Origin: Steinernema hermaphroditum
Lineage: Eukaryota; Nematoda; Chromadorea; Rhabditida; Steinernematidae
Assembly: GCA_030435675.1 (NCBI GenBank)
Contig: CM059624.1
Coordinates: forward strand, 2,380,769-2,444,768
Length of the DNA: 64,000 bases
Direction of reading: 5' to 3'
Under the pieces are notes generated by a model. It was not told the origin of the DNA. It did not search any database and saw nothing but the letters and a program-made list of their open reading frames with translations. The translations under genes and the position numbers were made by a program. This document shows, one piece after another, positions 2,886 to 64,000 of this stretch (positions are counted from its first letter, which is position 1; each line of letters begins with the position of its first letter).

Positions 2886-5800
2886 TCACTGTGATAAAGT
2901 GCCTTGTGATCGCGTATCCGATGGTCCGACGAATCTGGTAACGGCTACTTGAATCTTCGACGAGCGCACTCCTAGCAACATGAACAGATTCGTTCGAAGA
3001 TCACCGTTGAAGATGAAAACGACGAGCGGATTCATGAAGGAGCTAAGGAGAACGATCCAATTTTGGACGAAGGTGATAATATGCAGATCGTCCTTAATTT
3101 TCGGGAGTGACAGAAAGCTGATATTCTGGATTTCCAAGCAGACGCAGATGAGGAAACTCTAAAAACAATGAGAAGTGGAAAAAGTTCTGGAGGTATGGGG
3201 ATTCGAACCCCAGCCCTCTCGCATGCTAAGCGAGCGCTCTACCCCTGAGCTATACCCCCACATTCGAATTCAGTCTTGCAAATAGCTTACCTGAATGAGC
3301 ATACTGAATTCTCTTTTCCTTCGTTTTGAGTTAACTTGACTGTTCCACGAGAAGTTAGCGAAAACTTTGAAGTTGGAAAGTCTCGTGTAGGCTATTAAAG
3401 CGATGTACATGACCATCATAATGGCTGGGAAGTAGGTTGACGTATAGGAACCCTCAAAGTGGAATATGGTAATTGGTGTAACAGCCCGTCACTAACTTAC
3501 CCACATCTTCATAAACCACAAAAACTGTGAAATATCTTTCACACAGTCGTGCCACAGATAGAACTTCTCAAAATTAAACGACTTCCTGCATCCGCCCACA
3601 TTAGTCAAAATCACAAAAACAGCAATAATGAACCAGACCAGGGCGATTGTTCTAAAAATCTCGCAAGTGATACCGTTTGGTTCTTTTCGATACTCACACA
3701 TAGACACGTTTCCCAGTGAATAAGAGGACGTTCAGCTTTGGAAATATAAAGACAGAGAAACGATTTATTGTTAGGAGAAAAGAGAAATAAAGTTGACCAT
3801 TGTAGGCTACCGTATCGAAGAATGCGATGAGGTGAGGCAAGTCGTAGAAGAGGACGATGTCTTCGTATATCTAAACGAAATTCATATGTTATTTGGTTTT
3901 GAATGTTCCCCAACTTTCAAAGATGAACTCCAACCCCATCTGAGCTTATTGTTTTGCACTTCTTGGTACTAATAAACACCAATAAAAAGTGCTTCGCTGT
4001 CCGAAAAGAGTGTAATTAGCTGAAGTACAGCTGTCTTACATACATACACTTTCAGAACGACATGCGCTATGCCTCAAGCGTAGGTTATGTCACATTGTTT
4101 AGGTGAAGTTTGTGCAGAAATGACAGTGATTTAGATCCAACCGTAGTTCAGTTCAGTTAACATAGTACATAATGCATCGATGACAGGTGCATTGAAAATT
4201 TGGTAAATTTTGCATCTGCGCACGTGCTTTATTATTGCGTTGCATTTCTGCAAAAAGTCATTTCAGCAATAACATCTTTCACCTTGAACTAAAAATTGCC
4301 GAAGGTAACATTTCACCTGTAACCTCTATACAGAGGCGTAGATGTACAAAGATTTGTACGAACAGATGGTTTCAAAAGCTGTAGTCAAAAAATCTTAAGT
4401 TCAAATAAGTTTTCAGGAGCCAGCACAAACAAACACATGCATAATGCTGGAAAATTAAGACATCACCATTGTGAAGCCTCACCCGCAGCGATCCTAAGAA
4501 GTATGAAACGAGTTCAGACTCGTTTCGGTCTTTTGAAATGTTCACCCTATTTAATTCAGATTCTTTTGATTTTAACAATTTGTCTCAGAACCTCACTCAA
4601 TTTGAATTTGAAGAATTTGAACCTCTCTCAAAGTCTTTTTGTAGTTGGCGCCACGAAATGGGTGACGTTGTTTTTTTGAAAAGAAATGACCACTTTTCGT
4701 TGCTATAATACGCACGTAATCCGTGATCGTCTGAACATTATGTAAATTTGAATGTTCATGTGATCGCAAATTTTCAGAAGCATATAAATTTTGCCCACTT
4801 TTGTTCCATGCGATGTTCCATGAAAGGAATCTGAAGATATAGGAAAAAAGTTTCGGGCTGAGCCGGGGATTGATCCCGGGACCTCTCGCACCCTAAGCGA
4901 GAATCATACCACTAGACCACTCAGCCATGAGAAATGCGCATCCCTAGAAGGGAAAGTCCGCCGAGAGTTTCAAATAATTAGGTCATTCATACCCCCCTGG
5001 AGGAGAAGGTCATCGAGAAAGGAAGACTATCACGGCTGAGTGGTCTAGTGGTATGATTCTCGCTTAGGGTGCGAGAGGTCCCGGGATCAATCCCCGGCTC
5101 AGCCCGAATCTTTTTTTCATCATATGATGGCTTAATTTTTTTCATTTCCGATTTGACCCACTGAAAGCACAAGAATACTGATTTGATATATTACGTATTT
5201 GGGAGGAGCGGGTATCCTAAACCAGAAATGTTATCTCCCGCAGAGGTCCGTGATCTTTCACTTTCGATGCACTTGAACGCTTCGCGTTCGGAAAAAAAAT
5301 GGTGATCACCACATACCATAATAGTATTGTGATGTAGCAGTAGATTAAAAGGATCGGAATGATGGTGACGTTTTTAAAACAGTTAGTAAAAAACACTCTT
5401 TATTGCCCACTTCCCACTTTCCAAACGTCACTAAATACTTCATTGTCTGCAGTTTGATTAACTCAATGAAGTTCCACTAAAGCGAAAATACGTCTGGCAG
5501 AACAATGATTTGAACTTTAACGTGGAAAGAAAAACGAAGAAGTTATTATGCCTATATTCCGATAAGCTATGATCGCACCCTGTTGTGGCATCCAGAACTC
5601 GAGTACGGGTTCATTTTTGAGTCCGAATCCGGTCTTGGAATCCGAGTTTGACTAAAGAGGGCGAGTCTAAGCGGAACATGGGTCATCACGCACAAGCCGA
5701 ATGGATGATTGTCTAAATTTTTTGTCCTAGTAGTAAACATTGTAGTTTCAAGCAGCCCGGTAATGATTTATATCACATATTCAAGTCTTATGTATATGAG

Positions 5801-20862: not shown

Positions 20863-20934
20863 GGGCTGAGCCGGGGATTGATCCCGGGACCTCTCGCACC
20901 CTAAGCGAGAATCATACCACTAGACCACTCAGCC
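20863..20934 (-). tRNA. tRNA-Pro (AGG)
   Basis: Same sequence as the tRNA-Pro genes at 4.9-5.1 kb: AGG anticodon, GGCTGAG acceptor. It is the left arm of a second opposed pair. Confidence 0.95.
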
Positions 20935-21039
20935 GTGGTAGTCTTCCTTTCTCGATGACCTTCTCCTCCAGGGGTATCGATGACCTAATTATTTGAAACT
21001 CTCGACGGACTTCCCCTTCTAGCGGTGCGCAGATCTCAC

Positions 21040-21111
21040 GGCTGAGTGGTCTAGTGGTATGATTCTCGCTTAGGGTGCGAGAGGTCCCGGGATCAATCCC
21101 CGGCTCAGCCC
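21040..21111 (+). tRNA. tRNA-Pro (AGG), opposed partner
   Basis: Right arm of the second opposed tRNA-Pro pair, 105 bp from its partner. It is followed by GAATCTTTTTG, a pol III terminator. The spacer between the two genes is the reverse complement of the spacer in the first pair. Confidence 0.95.
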
Positions 21112-28656: not shown

Positions 28657-28758
28657 GTTCAGTCTTTGCTCCTAGGGGCGGGCAGCTTTCATTCAAACGC
28701 ATCTAGAGGTGTGCACGTATAACAGGAGATGTGAAAGAGGCCAAGCAGAACAAAAAAC

Positions 28759-28980
28759 GGCATAAAGCCGTTTCAGGCGTCCCCCTGGATATCGGGCGTC
28801 CCCCCTTTTTTGTGGGATTTCAGGCGTCCCCTCTGAGATTTCAGGCGTCCCCCCTGCGATTTCAGGCGTCCCCCCTGGGATTTCAGGCGTCCCCCCTGAG
28901 ATTTCAGGCGTCCCCCCTGGGATTTCAGGCGTCCCCCCTGGGAGTTCAGGCGTCCCCCCTGGGATTTCGACCGTCCCCTG
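28759..28980 (+). repeat. left subrepeat array of the foldback element
   Basis: About ten units of a ~20-bp repeat (TTTCAGGCGTCCCCCCTGGGA and variants). On this strand it gives a repetitive QASPLGF-like reading frame that is not a gene. Confidence 0.9.
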
Positions 28981-29229
28981 GATTAATAACATTTTAATAA
29001 TTTTTAATATAATTAAAATTTAAAAAATTTAAATGAAATTTTCAGAATATTAATATTATTAAAATTTCATTAAAAGAATACATCACGTGTTGCAAGATTA
29101 ATTTATAACACGGAAGTTTAATGGAATTTTAGTAATATCAGAATTAGAAATTATAATTTAATCGTACTATACCTGCTGTCTTCCTCAGTCAAATCGTTCT
29201 CGTTCTTGCTTACAAAATCTTACAAAATC

Positions 29230-29590
29230 TACGTCATGTCTATGGTACAAAGGAGGTATCGTCACGTGTGCGCGGCTCTGGCGTGTAGGATGCATCTATC
29301 AGCGCACACGGAGCTCAATACCACGTACTCCAACGGGGGCTGTAACCGACTGAGCCGAGCTACCGTACCCTACCGTAGCCAAGCACGCACTACACAGGCA
29401 GGCTCCCGTCGCGACTGGGATACTGTACCAAAACGCAGCAGCGCTCGGGTACGGTAGTTCGACTCAGCCGGCGATAGCCCCCGTTAGAGTGCATGGTATT
29501 GAGTTCCGTGTGCGCTGATAGATGCATCCTGAATGCCAGAGCGGCGCGCACCTAATGACATCACCCCTGTACCGGAGACATGACGTAGCC
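29230..29590. repeat. nested inverted repeat inside the foldback element
   Basis: Arms 29230-29371 and 29447-29590 are reverse complements with scattered mismatches. Both share TACGTCATGTCT, GGCTCTGGC-type, GATGCATC and GAACTC/GAGCTCAATACCA strings. The loop is ~75 bp and contains GGTACGGTAG. This looks like a MITE inserted in, or evolved within, the larger element. Confidence 0.75.
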
Positions 29591-30002
29591 AGGCCTAACC
29601 GCAGTATCTCCTCATGGTGTAACAGAATCGGTGCGCGCATGACCTCATATTTAATCCAGTCGTCTAAGTAGTCGATTGACACCTCGCATGTGTCCAGAGC
29701 ACAACTGGACAAGAGTATATGCTATACCGGGCTATGGTCTGGACCTAACTCAAAATGGACATATACAAACGATAGCCCACCCTATGGCGCGTCGAACGCA
29801 CCTACGCACTTGTCCAGAGATGCACACCACACCGGGAAATGGGCTATCCCGGGATAAGGGAACTGCGTTTTCGGCATATCGGGTGCGCATACTATACGGT
29901 AGTATAGGCATTTCGGCTATTCGTTATTCGTTTGTCGAACCGAAAAGTTCCGACTGCTCCTAACTCACCAGGGTTTTGTGATATCTTGGAACATCTTGGT
30001 AC

Positions 30003-30190
30003 CATTCGAAAGCTAAATAAATTATCTATCTACTCTGTGTTTGTACTCGGCGGATTTTGAAATTCATCTTAGTTAGCGGGATATCAACCAAACAAGTTCA
30101 AAATTTGGATTAGCAGGCAGTTGTTGGCTCTCGACACGATTCGCCTGTGGGGGGCACGGGGAAGTATGAGGCGAGCGAAACACGCTTGTC
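30003..30190 (+). repeat. dispersed repeat block, copy 2
   Basis: Matches 225-440. Shared landmarks are TCGAAAGCTAAATAAATT, ACCAAACAAGTTCAAAAT, CTCGACACGATT and GGCGAGCGAA. It lies in the interior of the foldback element. Confidence 0.6.
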
Positions 30191-30707
30191 AAAGTGTTTC
30201 TCGAACAACGTCAAGAACAGCGGTTCGTCCTCTTGATTATCATGATCACCGGGACACGTCTACCTTGCTTATGTTTAAAATTAAAATAAAAAATGAATCT
30301 ATTTAAAAACATATTTAAAAATCTATTTCACCAATTTAAAATGTATTTAAAAAATAAATCTAGCCAATAGACTAAGCCTAAGCCATGCCTGGATTTGTCC
30401 GTGGGTCCGTGCAGGAACCTATGACCAGGGATTTATTCCGTTGTATGCTTGCAATTGATACACTTACCGTCCAAGATAACCAATGAAAATGGATAAAAAT
30501 GAATATAATTAATATGATAATTAATAAAAATTGGAGTTTCTGCATTTTACATTATACCGAGGCCATATTAGCCGACACCACATTATCTACCCGACCCAGA
30601 GCCCTTAATTTCAATTTAATGAAATTTTAGTGGTATTCAAATTCTGAAAATTTCATTTTAATTTTTTAATTTTAATTATATTAAAATTATTAAAATTTCG
30701 TTAATAC

Positions 30708-31068
30708 AGGGGGACGGTCGAAATCACAGGGGGGACGCCTAAAATCCCATGGGGACGCCTGAAATCTCAGAGGGGACGCCTGAAATCCCAGGGGGACGCC
30801 TGAAATCCCAGGGGGGACGCCTGAAATCCCAGGGGGACGCCTGAAATCCCAGGGGGGACGCCTGAAATCTCAGAGGGGACGCCTGAAATCCCAGGGGGAC
30901 GCCTGTAATCCCAGGGGGGACGCCTGAAATCCCAGGGGGGACGCCTCAAATCCCAGGGGTGACGCCCAAAAGCACAAAAAGGGGGACGCCTCAAAGCACA
31001 GGGACGCCTGAAATCACAAAAAGGGACGCCTGAAATCCCACGGGGGACGCCTGAAACGGCTTTATGCC
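30708..31068 (-). repeat. right subrepeat array of the foldback element
   Basis: About sixteen inverted copies of the ~20-bp unit seen at 28759-28980, with a few degenerate units near 30960-31020. The array is longer than the left one, as expected if unit number varies. Confidence 0.9.
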
Positions 31069-31468
31069 CAAAAAACTATAACGTCTGGGTTTGCTTTTCG
31101 ATCATCAGCACAGGTTGCGAAGCATCGTCTTTCGGTTAGATGAATGGAGAAAGGGATGAATCGGCACGCATCGCTTCTCTATACGTCTGATTTGCTTCAC
31201 GCTGATGCAAATATGCGGCTAATGAATTAATTCAGCCCGTTCCTTTCGTTGCCATTTCTGGCCGAGTCACCTTCACAACTTGAACCATTTCAATGCCTTT
31301 TAACGTCGTTTTGGCCCACTGACCTGTTCTCAATATATGTTAAGCTGTCCTCTTGTTGCTATCTTGTACAATGTCAGCTTCTTGATGTGTATTGCCACTC
31401 CTGAATAAATGAATGAAAGAGTTTTACTGAAACACAACATGTTCAAGTGTTTGCAAAACAGATCGTAT

Positions 31469-49497: not shown

Positions 49498-50080
49498 CGG
49501 CTCCGACGCCGACGACGCCCGCCGACGCCCGACGACGCCCGCCGACGCCCGACGCGCTCGCCGACGCCCGACGCGCTCGCCGACGCCCGACGCGCTCGCC
49601 GACGCCCGACGCGCTCGCCGACGCCCGACGCGCTCGCCGACGCCCGACGCGCTCGCCGACGCCCGACGCGCTCGCCGACGCCCGACGCGCTCGCCGACGC
49701 CCGACGCGCTCGCCGACGCCCGACGCGCTCGCCGACGCCCGACGTGTTTGTAGACGCCCGACGTGTTTGTAGACGCCCGACGCGCTCGCCGACGCCCGAC
49801 GTGTTTGTAGACGCCCGACGCGCTCGCCGACGCCCGACGTGTTTGTAGACGCCCGACGTGTTTGTAGACGCCCGACGTGTTTGTAGACGCCCGACGCGCT
49901 CGCCGACGCCCGACGTGTTTGTAGACGCCCGACGTGTTTGTAGACGCCCGACGTGTTTGTAGACGCCCGACGTGTTTGTAGACGCCCGACGTGTTTGTAG
50001 ACGCCCGACGTGTTTGTAGACGCCCGACGTGTTTGTAGACGCCCGACGTGTTTGTAGACGCCCGACGTGTTTGTAGACGT
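49498..50080 (+). repeat. 19-bp minisatellite with two alternating unit types
   Basis: About thirty tandem 19-bp units, all beginning GACGCCCGACG. Type 1 is GACGCCCGACGCGCTCGCC and fills the left part. Type 2 is GACGCCCGACGTGTTTGTA and fills the right part. They are interspersed in the middle (49740-49900). The array begins with shorter degenerate GACGACGCCCGCC units. It ends ~140 bp before the start of single-exon paralogue Y. Long frames through the array (for example on the minus strand 49390-50163) are artefacts of the repeat. Confidence 0.95.
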
Positions 50081-62636: not shown

Positions 62637-63571
62637 AAAGTCGTGGCTCTATTAGAGAGAAGTGACCAAAATGGTATTTATCTTGACAAAACTGTATTTA
62701 TCTTGACAAAACTGTGTTTATCTTGACAAAACCGACCAAACTTGACAAAACCGTATCTATCTTGACAAAACCGGCCAAAATTGACAAAATCGACCAAAAT
62801 TGACAGAATGGTATTTAGATTGACAAAACTGTATTTATCTTGACAAAAGTATTTTTTAATTGACAAAACTGAATTTATCTTGACAAAACCAATTTTCACT
62901 GACAAAACAGAATTCCACTGACAAAACGTTCTTTAACCACTAACTGCAAAGATCAAAGTTTTTTATCAACAAATTTATCACAAACAGAAAACGAACTGTT
63001 CAATAGTCATCCTCTTCGGGTTCTTCGCTGGGTCTGTCGGAACTGGGCCCTGCGACAGGCACGGGACCATAAGCTAGGGGGTGAGGGCCTCGTCGTAGAG
63101 ATAGATGAGAGCTATTTTTATAAGCCAAAGTTCAACAGGGGCCGTAAGTTAGGTAAAAGTTCCGGATGAGTCTTTGGCCTTACGAGTCGTGCCACGGGAG
63201 AGGTCAGGGTCTTTGAAGTTAGGGACCGCTCCGCAGCTACATTGCTTCCTTTAATAAGAGATAATTGTGCGCCTGGTACAATTGTCACTTCTGATGGCTG
63301 GAGCGCATATAGCAAAATTGAGGAACTAGAGATGGAGTATACCCGGAAATGGGTGAATCACAAAATAAGTTTTGTTCACCCGAAAGATAGGTCTGTTCCA
63401 TGGAGGCTGATTTATAATTTTGTCAGTGAAAATTGGTTGTGTCAAGATAAATTCAGTTTTGTCAATTAAAAAATACTTTTGTCAAGATAAATACGGTTTT
63501 GTCAAGATAAATACAGTTTTGTCAAGATAAATACCATTTTGGTCACTTCTCCCTAATAGAGCCAAAGTCGT
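62637..63571 (+). mobile_element. Merlin/IS1016-type DNA transposon with 8-bp target-site duplication
   Basis: The element spans 62645-63563 (919 bp). Tips are GGCTCTATTAG and the reverse complement CTAATAGAGCC. The flanking 8 bp are identical (AAAGTCGT at 62637-62644 and 63564-63571). The inverted ends share AGAAGTGACCAAAATGGTA and then become arrays of a ~20-bp unit, TATTTATCTTGACAAAACTG, ~270 bp on the left and ~120 bp on the right. The interior encodes part of an ISXO2/IS1016-like transposase. GG...CC tips, 8-bp duplication and this transposase type together define Merlin elements. Confidence 0.85.
63083..63406 (+). pseudogene. Merlin (ISXO2-like DDE) transposase remnant
   Basis: The frame reads VVEIDESYFYKPKFNRGRKL (first catalytic Asp in the EIDES motif), then an in-frame TGA at 63167-63169 where the family has a Trp codon. 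It continues TGEVRVFEVRDRSAATLLPL, APGTIVTSDGWSAYSKIEEL (second Asp in TSDGW) and YTRKWVNHKISFV. The frame then runs into the right-hand subrepeat array, so the third catalytic residue and the C-terminus are missing, as is the N-terminal DNA-binding part. The copy cannot encode an active enzyme. Confidence 0.85.
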
Positions 63572-63606: not shown

Positions 63607-64000
63607 GGCATAAAGCCATTTCAACCGCCTCTCTTGATCTGGGCCGTCACCCATTGCTTTCAATCGTCCCTTTCAATCTTGGTGGGATTTGGATCGTGAC
63701 CTTTGAGATTTCAATCATCTCCATTAGGATTTTGTCCCTCATAAAAAGTGGTATGAAATCATAATGGACATGGGTGCAATCCCAAAGGGGACGGTACAAA
63801 TCTTCAAAAAAGGGGCGATTCAAATACCGATTTTTTGTAGTCGACTTGGAGGTGATCGACATTTTTCTTTTTTTTTCACATTTGCATTGCAACTGATTGT
63901 GTTCTTCTTTCACACTAGAGTCCGATAAAAAATCAATAGCCAGGGGTGTCCGGAACATTCATGAGGAACCATTGATAGGGACGCACGTGATTCATCTCCA
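63607..64000 (+). mobile_element. left end of a diverged foldback element, cut by window edge
   Basis: Starts GGCATAAAGCCATTTCAACCG, which matches the tip of the element at 28759 with few changes. It continues with degenerate copies of its subrepeat (CCCTTTCAATCTTGG, TTTGAGATTTCAATC). The other end is beyond the window. It lies only 36 bp after the Merlin-type element's tip. Confidence 0.5.

Follow-up and report, generated by a model that had tools for sequence, protein, structure and literature searches.

A complete, non-autonomous foldback transposon with minisatellite arms in Steinernema hermaphroditum and its probable Merlin driver

Foldback elements are assigned to the Mutator or P superfamilies in the available text of two papers (PMC3169594, PMC4079207). 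Merlin elements, as described in the accessible part of a third (PMC8101967), have 5′-GG ends, 8/9-bp target duplications and, in some families, tandem repeats; the term "foldback" is absent from the main text of that paper, and one review names Merlin and foldback, separately, in its accessible part. Merlin enzymes are not usually linked to foldback elements. Literature searches, with most subscription papers and Repbase outside their scope, found neither a Merlin-driven foldback nor Merlin in the Steinernema transposable-element literature.

Here, a 64,000-nucleotide stretch of S. hermaphroditum DNA (the window; C4:2380769-2444768) was analysed together with the whole assembly (90.6 Mb; 60 contigs, of which five measure 16.7-18.4 Mb). 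The window contains an element with the long inverted ends of tandem units that mark the foldback structural class, and its family also displays, as in Merlin, 5′-GG ends and a duplication of 8 bp.

Structure of the window element

The original prediction described a transposon whose ends are minisatellites and whose flanks carry a perfect 8-bp duplication. This was confirmed, exact to the base, as a complete foldback element of 2,310 bp at 28759-31068, between two copies of CAAAAAAC. Its features are:

28751..28758, no strand: target duplication CAAAAAAC, left copy (sequence match; tip-pair duplication test)
28759..28775, plus strand: left terminal tip GGCATAAAGCCGTTTCA (sequence match; genome tip scan)
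28776..28981, plus strand: left minisatellite arm with 10 units, each 19-28 bp long but mostly 21, 9 starting GGCGTC and the innermost ACCGTC
28982..29074, plus strand: left inverted repeat, inner A+T-rich part (inverted-repeat scan)
29075..30614, no strand: core without transposase, longest frame 111 aa (inverted-repeat and frame scans)
29229..29588, no strand: imperfect palindrome of the core, arms 29229-29375 and 29442-29588, 82% (inverted-repeat scan)
30615..30706, minus strand: right inverted repeat, inner A+T-rich part (inverted-repeat scan)
30707..31051, minus strand: right minisatellite arm, 17 units, 16 starting GGCGTC and the innermost ACCGTC
31052..31068, minus strand: right terminal tip (sequence match; genome tip scan)
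31069..31076, no strand: target duplication CAAAAAAC, right copy (sequence match; tip-pair duplication test)

Both ends read GGCATAAAGCCGTTTCA inward and are identical and inverted. A 19-base form of the tip was found exactly in the window at 28759-28777 (plus strand) and 31050-31068 (minus strand), with 0.00 occurrences expected from 100 shuffles. The typical unit of the arms is GGCGTCCCCCCTGGGATTTCA, and period-21 arrays were detected at 28813-28968 and 30709-31056, with stretches up to 99% complementary. Ten units had been predicted on the left and about sixteen on the right; the left count stands, and the right becomes 17, the counts of 10 and 17 both including the innermost unit of the arm, which starts ACCGTC. 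Inside the A+T-rich inverted segments, the core measures approximately 1.5 kb. The interior had been said to contain no transposase and none was found, the longest overlapping stop-to-stop frame being 111 aa; no Rfam match at gathering score was found inside the element. A hairpin (ACGGC/GCCGT) proposed for the tip is mostly outside it and borrows two bases from the duplication of this copy, the outer AC being the end of that duplication; only the 3-bp GGC/GCC stem lies within the element, and even this is broken by GGCATAAATCC, which is present at one end of three other copies with perfect duplications.

Elsewhere in the window, two divergently arranged tRNA-Pro(AGG) pairs are located 16 kb apart at 4855-5105 and 20863-21111, all four genes having the same Rfam score, and a G+C-rich 19/38-bp tandem array lies at 49505-50079 within an open minus-strand frame of 257 aa.

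A dispersed family with differing target duplications

The whole-genome tip check that had been suggested was run with the 17-base tip, R being allowed at one position, and the reversed tip as the control. Exact tips numbered 46 (control, 0) and tips within one mismatch 145 (control, 2), forming a dispersed family. The survey of this family covered 100 of 145 and 100 of 152 tip places, those among the matches listed. Tips were biased to chromosome arms, 0 of the 46 exact tips being situated in the central third of a chromosome.

When both tips were allowed up to 3 mismatches and paired with the nearest partner, all fetched loci together yielded 24 distinct inverted pairs. Duplications of 8 bp with no more than 2 mismatches flanked 14 of these pairs, each different in sequence as the original prediction had anticipated for a mobile family, and 8 of the 14 were perfect; a control in which the right flank was moved by 1-4 bases gave 0/96. 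The remaining 10 pairs, with 4-7 mismatches, lacked a duplication, which is the pattern expected of old or recombined copies. A looser partner rule, which picks false partners for some long copies, gave duplications in 14/50 pairs versus 1/200 in the control. Since fixed tips at many places carry differing 8-bp duplications, this is a real, mobile transposon family with target duplications around many copies, and the window copy is confirmed as a complete, non-autonomous foldback transposon that works like known foldbacks.

Five copies are long, namely the window copy (2.3 kb), L042 (2.6 kb), L040 (4.0 kb), L045 (5.1 kb) and L039 (6.3 kb), all with perfect duplications; the other 19 tip pairs are short, 97-441 bp. 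Unit number varies as had been foreseen, the left/right arms having 10/17 units in the window copy, 10/13 in L039, and 12/11, 10/9 and 11/10 in three others. For the empty site of the window copy, a left-flank query gave 39 other matches listed (best 40 of 164 candidates scored), which covered query positions 11-163 of 309, none reaching the insertion point. In addition, a decayed foldback tip, GGCATAAAGCCATTTCA, with 3 mismatches was observed at window position 63607, followed by degenerate units to 63830, for which no clear right tip was found.

The intact duplication had been taken to imply recent insertion. It is indeed intact, but this is weak evidence of age: perfect duplications also surround L040 and L042, the cores of which differ from that of the window copy by approximately 7-11%, and the nest-bearing L039 and L045. 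Because diverged and nest-bearing copies keep perfect duplications, 8 intact bases are a poor clock. Core identity to the window element is 98.5% over 864 bp in L039, 94% over 1,166 bp in L041, 92.6% over 647 bp in L042 and 89.7% over 619 bp in L040; the sister copy L039 is a better sign of recency than the duplication.

No transposase of its own was found in any copy examined, and the additional genes of the long copies appear to belong to nested elements. Relative to the window copy, which is uninterrupted, L039 carries two insertions: a palindromic element of 1.1 kb at a TA site and, at a TTA site, a PIF/Harbinger-like element with DDE_Tnp_4 above the cut-off in one frame and below it in a second, and MADF just below the cut-off. 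An autonomous copy was rejected, as the genes of the long copies appear to sit in nested elements: judged from translation without a family search, the L040 frame reads as Tc1/mariner-like and the L045 frames as LTR-element gag/protease. Two further candidates were discarded, L048, where a MULE match near core-like pieces belongs to a stack of nested elements, and L099, where the tip pair 4.7 kb apart comes from a pair of short copies, with frames interpreted as a host cullin gene lying between them.

Local Merlin elements and the probable driver

The window also holds a degraded Merlin copy outside the foldback element:

62645..63563, no strand: degraded Merlin copy of 919 bp with GGCTCTATTAG ends, each of which holds an approximately 20-bp array, flanked on either side by AAAGTCGT as a perfect 8-bp duplication

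It retains, at 63092-63367, a DDE_Tnp_IS1595 remnant that contains one in-frame stop. This copy gave the main clue to the supposed driver of the foldback and is taken as a model for it; the decayed foldback tip at 63607 is situated 44 bases beyond it. Merlin tip pairs with GGCTCTATTAG were present in 20 of 31 sources (L049-L078 and the window), and the other 11, not all of which had been fetched for a Merlin gene, gave no Merlin tip pair. The 8-bp duplications of these 20 copies were perfect in 17 and within 2 mismatches in 19, with 4 mismatches in one; the Merlin of L063 has another GGC tip and also an 8-bp duplication. Arrays of 39 bp (19+20) accompany a 313-aa frame with a DDE_Tnp_IS1595 domain in L051, and 20-bp arrays were found in the ends of several other local Merlin copies, while the copies in L061 and L064 have only 31- and 41-bp inverted ends. 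The L051 protein has 24 homologues, the best being 57% identical over 56% of the query.

The GGC tip start is common to the foldback family and the local Merlins, the sequences differing after GGC. Target composition was compared between these two families, the duplications of both being bounded by G/C and A/T-rich inside: G/C occupied 12/16 outer and 11/48 inner duplication positions in the foldback family (p = 5e-4), and 22/36 outer and 21/108 inner positions in Merlin (p = 6e-6), the two not being distinguishable. At L052, a Merlin gene and Merlin units are followed by 12 foldback-type units in right-arm orientation. This junction was seen once among 103 matches listed (best 40 of 87 candidates scored), with no tip after it, and as a Merlin-foldback link it is suggestive only.

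The Merlin-type gene at L053 (C2:15247600-15250600) is divergent, sharing 55% identity with the L051 protein. It is flanked on one side by a 20-bp array, which is matched by an inverted stretch of 31 bp on the opposite side, and its ends are not GGCTCTATTAG. The divergent Merlin loci L101 and L102 were rejected, showing no GGCATAAAGCC ends, and L103 has ordinary Merlin tips.

Genome-wide, 36 Merlin matches were obtained with Pfam and 79 with the local protein query, together with MULE-domain and hAT matches. None of the 79 Merlin, 54 MULE and 69 compared hAT matches falls between known tips of the family, the 139 tips compared coming from lists with 100 of 145 and 100 of 152 places. One Merlin match lies 5.1 kb inside of a lone tip, at a locus with its own Merlin end (L049:4956). 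No DDE_Tnp_IS1595 transposase was found between foldback tips among these 139, and the L052 link is single and tipless. We consider that a Merlin (IS1595-type) transposase probably moves the foldback in trans, with the arms evolving by exchange or conversion; movement in trans is inferred because no own transposase was found. The family has a probable Merlin driver and is not a proven Merlin member.

A Mutator-like transposase, moving a Mutator-superfamily foldback like Tm1 and Tetris, is an unlikely alternative even in a genome with 54 MULE-domain matches. Tm1 is described as a nematode Mutator/foldback family (available text of PMC3169594), Tetris, with 8-10-bp duplications, is assigned to Mutator (available text of PMC4079207), and one MULE match is located 441 bp from a tip. 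This match is outside the tip, however, and 0/54 lie between known tips, 139 of which were compared; 14/14 good duplications are exactly 8 bp at a fixed tip, where Tm1 makes 9, and the tip start, duplication length and arm design are all common to the local Merlins. The 8-bp duplications would also suit hAT, P or Zisupton-type movement, and hAT matches number 77 in the genome, but of the 69 compared, all on large contigs, none is on the inner side of any of the 139 tips within 8 kb, and we regard this source as improbable. The tips of hAT and P elements normally lack a GG start. That the locus is not a transposon but a minisatellite palindrome, which duplication or recombination had spread, could be proposed from its minisatellite arms and from parts of the core that resemble other palindromic repeats and an rDNA spacer. 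This is refuted by the fixed tips, which occur at many unlinked places and are flanked there by 8-bp duplications of differing sequence, and its probability is negligible.

With Merlin as the preferred driver, the following course is envisaged. The end plan consists of a 17-bp tip, an arm of approximately 21-bp units and an A+T-rich inner segment, and insertion with an 8-bp target duplication is observed. An outside enzyme would act in trans, a Merlin/IS1595-type transposase that recognises the GGC tip and may recognise the units of the arms as well. Unit exchange or conversion within and across the inverted arms would change unit number and spread variants, as the two subfamilies described below suggest, and recombination between arms might, less certainly, have flipped the core once. 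A more tentative extension, which we hold somewhat less likely to be right than wrong, is that Merlins of this lineage repeatedly grow arms of approximately 20-bp units (about two helical turns) as transposase docking sites, the foldback family being an extreme product in which the arms evolve in concert and the core can flip.

Arm and core evolution, and comparison with known systems

The long copies fall into subfamily A (window, L039) and subfamily B (L040, L042, L045), whose core stretches differ by approximately 7-10%. All non-innermost units of subfamily A start with GGCGTC (25/25 in the window copy, 21/21 in L039) and the innermost of each arm with ACCGTC, and subfamily B has ACCGTC or one-base variants throughout. 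Given this core divergence, a two-base change that fills every outer unit of both arms indicates homogenisation across the inverted arms, the innermost units having been left behind.

Unit lengths correspond crosswise, the right arm of A (21-22-18-24) resembling the left arm of B (21-22-18-26), and the left arm of A and right arm of B both starting with 19. The right-hand core junction matches straight, A-right to B-right giving 0.96-0.99. The left arm of A is undecisive: its outer part gave 0.77-0.80 to B-left and 0.74-0.77 to B-right, and its inner junction 0.89 to B-right and 0.85-0.86 to B-left, with 0.55 for L045, in which the left junction is cut by an insertion. One flip of the core would explain this pattern, with moderate support (bootstrap 66).

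Part of the foldback core (29371-29810) is 74% identical to L047:318-753, a spacer just before a 5S gene in the rDNA array on C7, for which 19 repeats approximately 9.9 kb apart are listed. In the rDNA unit at L047 (C7:176000-185990), the 5S gene and a gene for U2 snRNA lie on opposite strands, next to TTAGGC-type repeats. Inverted dimers of core-related sequence are also present at L044 and at L043, the latter 20 kb from a contig end, and the foldback core may have taken up a palindromic repeat that is shared with these places.

If the Merlin link holds, the foldback form would have arisen in a third superfamily. With Merlins of the same genome carrying similar arrays, a role of the repeated units as additional transposase sites would be directly testable. 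The two subfamilies also document the spread of unit variants across inverted arms. Lying away from chromosome centres (0/46 exact tips in central thirds), elements with inverted arms could seed rearrangements there.

Among described systems, Merlin is alike in its GG start, 8-bp duplication and, in some families, tandem repeats (available text of PMC8101967), local copies being array-ended; it differs in that no foldback copy seen has a transposase and the tip departs after GGC. As given in the accessible text of PMC3169594, Tm1 of root-knot nematodes is likewise a nematode foldback, with composite ends of short units in variable number and both long and MITE-like copies, but has 9-bp duplications, 13-15-bp units, other terminal motifs and a known Mutator-type transposase. 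The 9-bp duplication of Tm1 is not shared by the present family, which has 8 bp in 14/14 good pairs. TU elements of sea urchin, likened here by description, share 8-bp duplications and foldback ends in which short units are repeated in tandem. Tetris of Drosophila virilis, in the available part of PMC4079207, is also a non-autonomous foldback with no transposase found, tandem-repeat ends and duplications from 8 bp; it differs in its 220-bp units, its 8-10-bp duplications and its placement in Mutator, as its authors proposed. Galileo of Drosophila resembles the present family in its foldback-like ends and internal tandem repeats with extra transposase-binding sites, but is moved by a P-superfamily transposase (accessible parts of PMC4079207 and PMC3169594).
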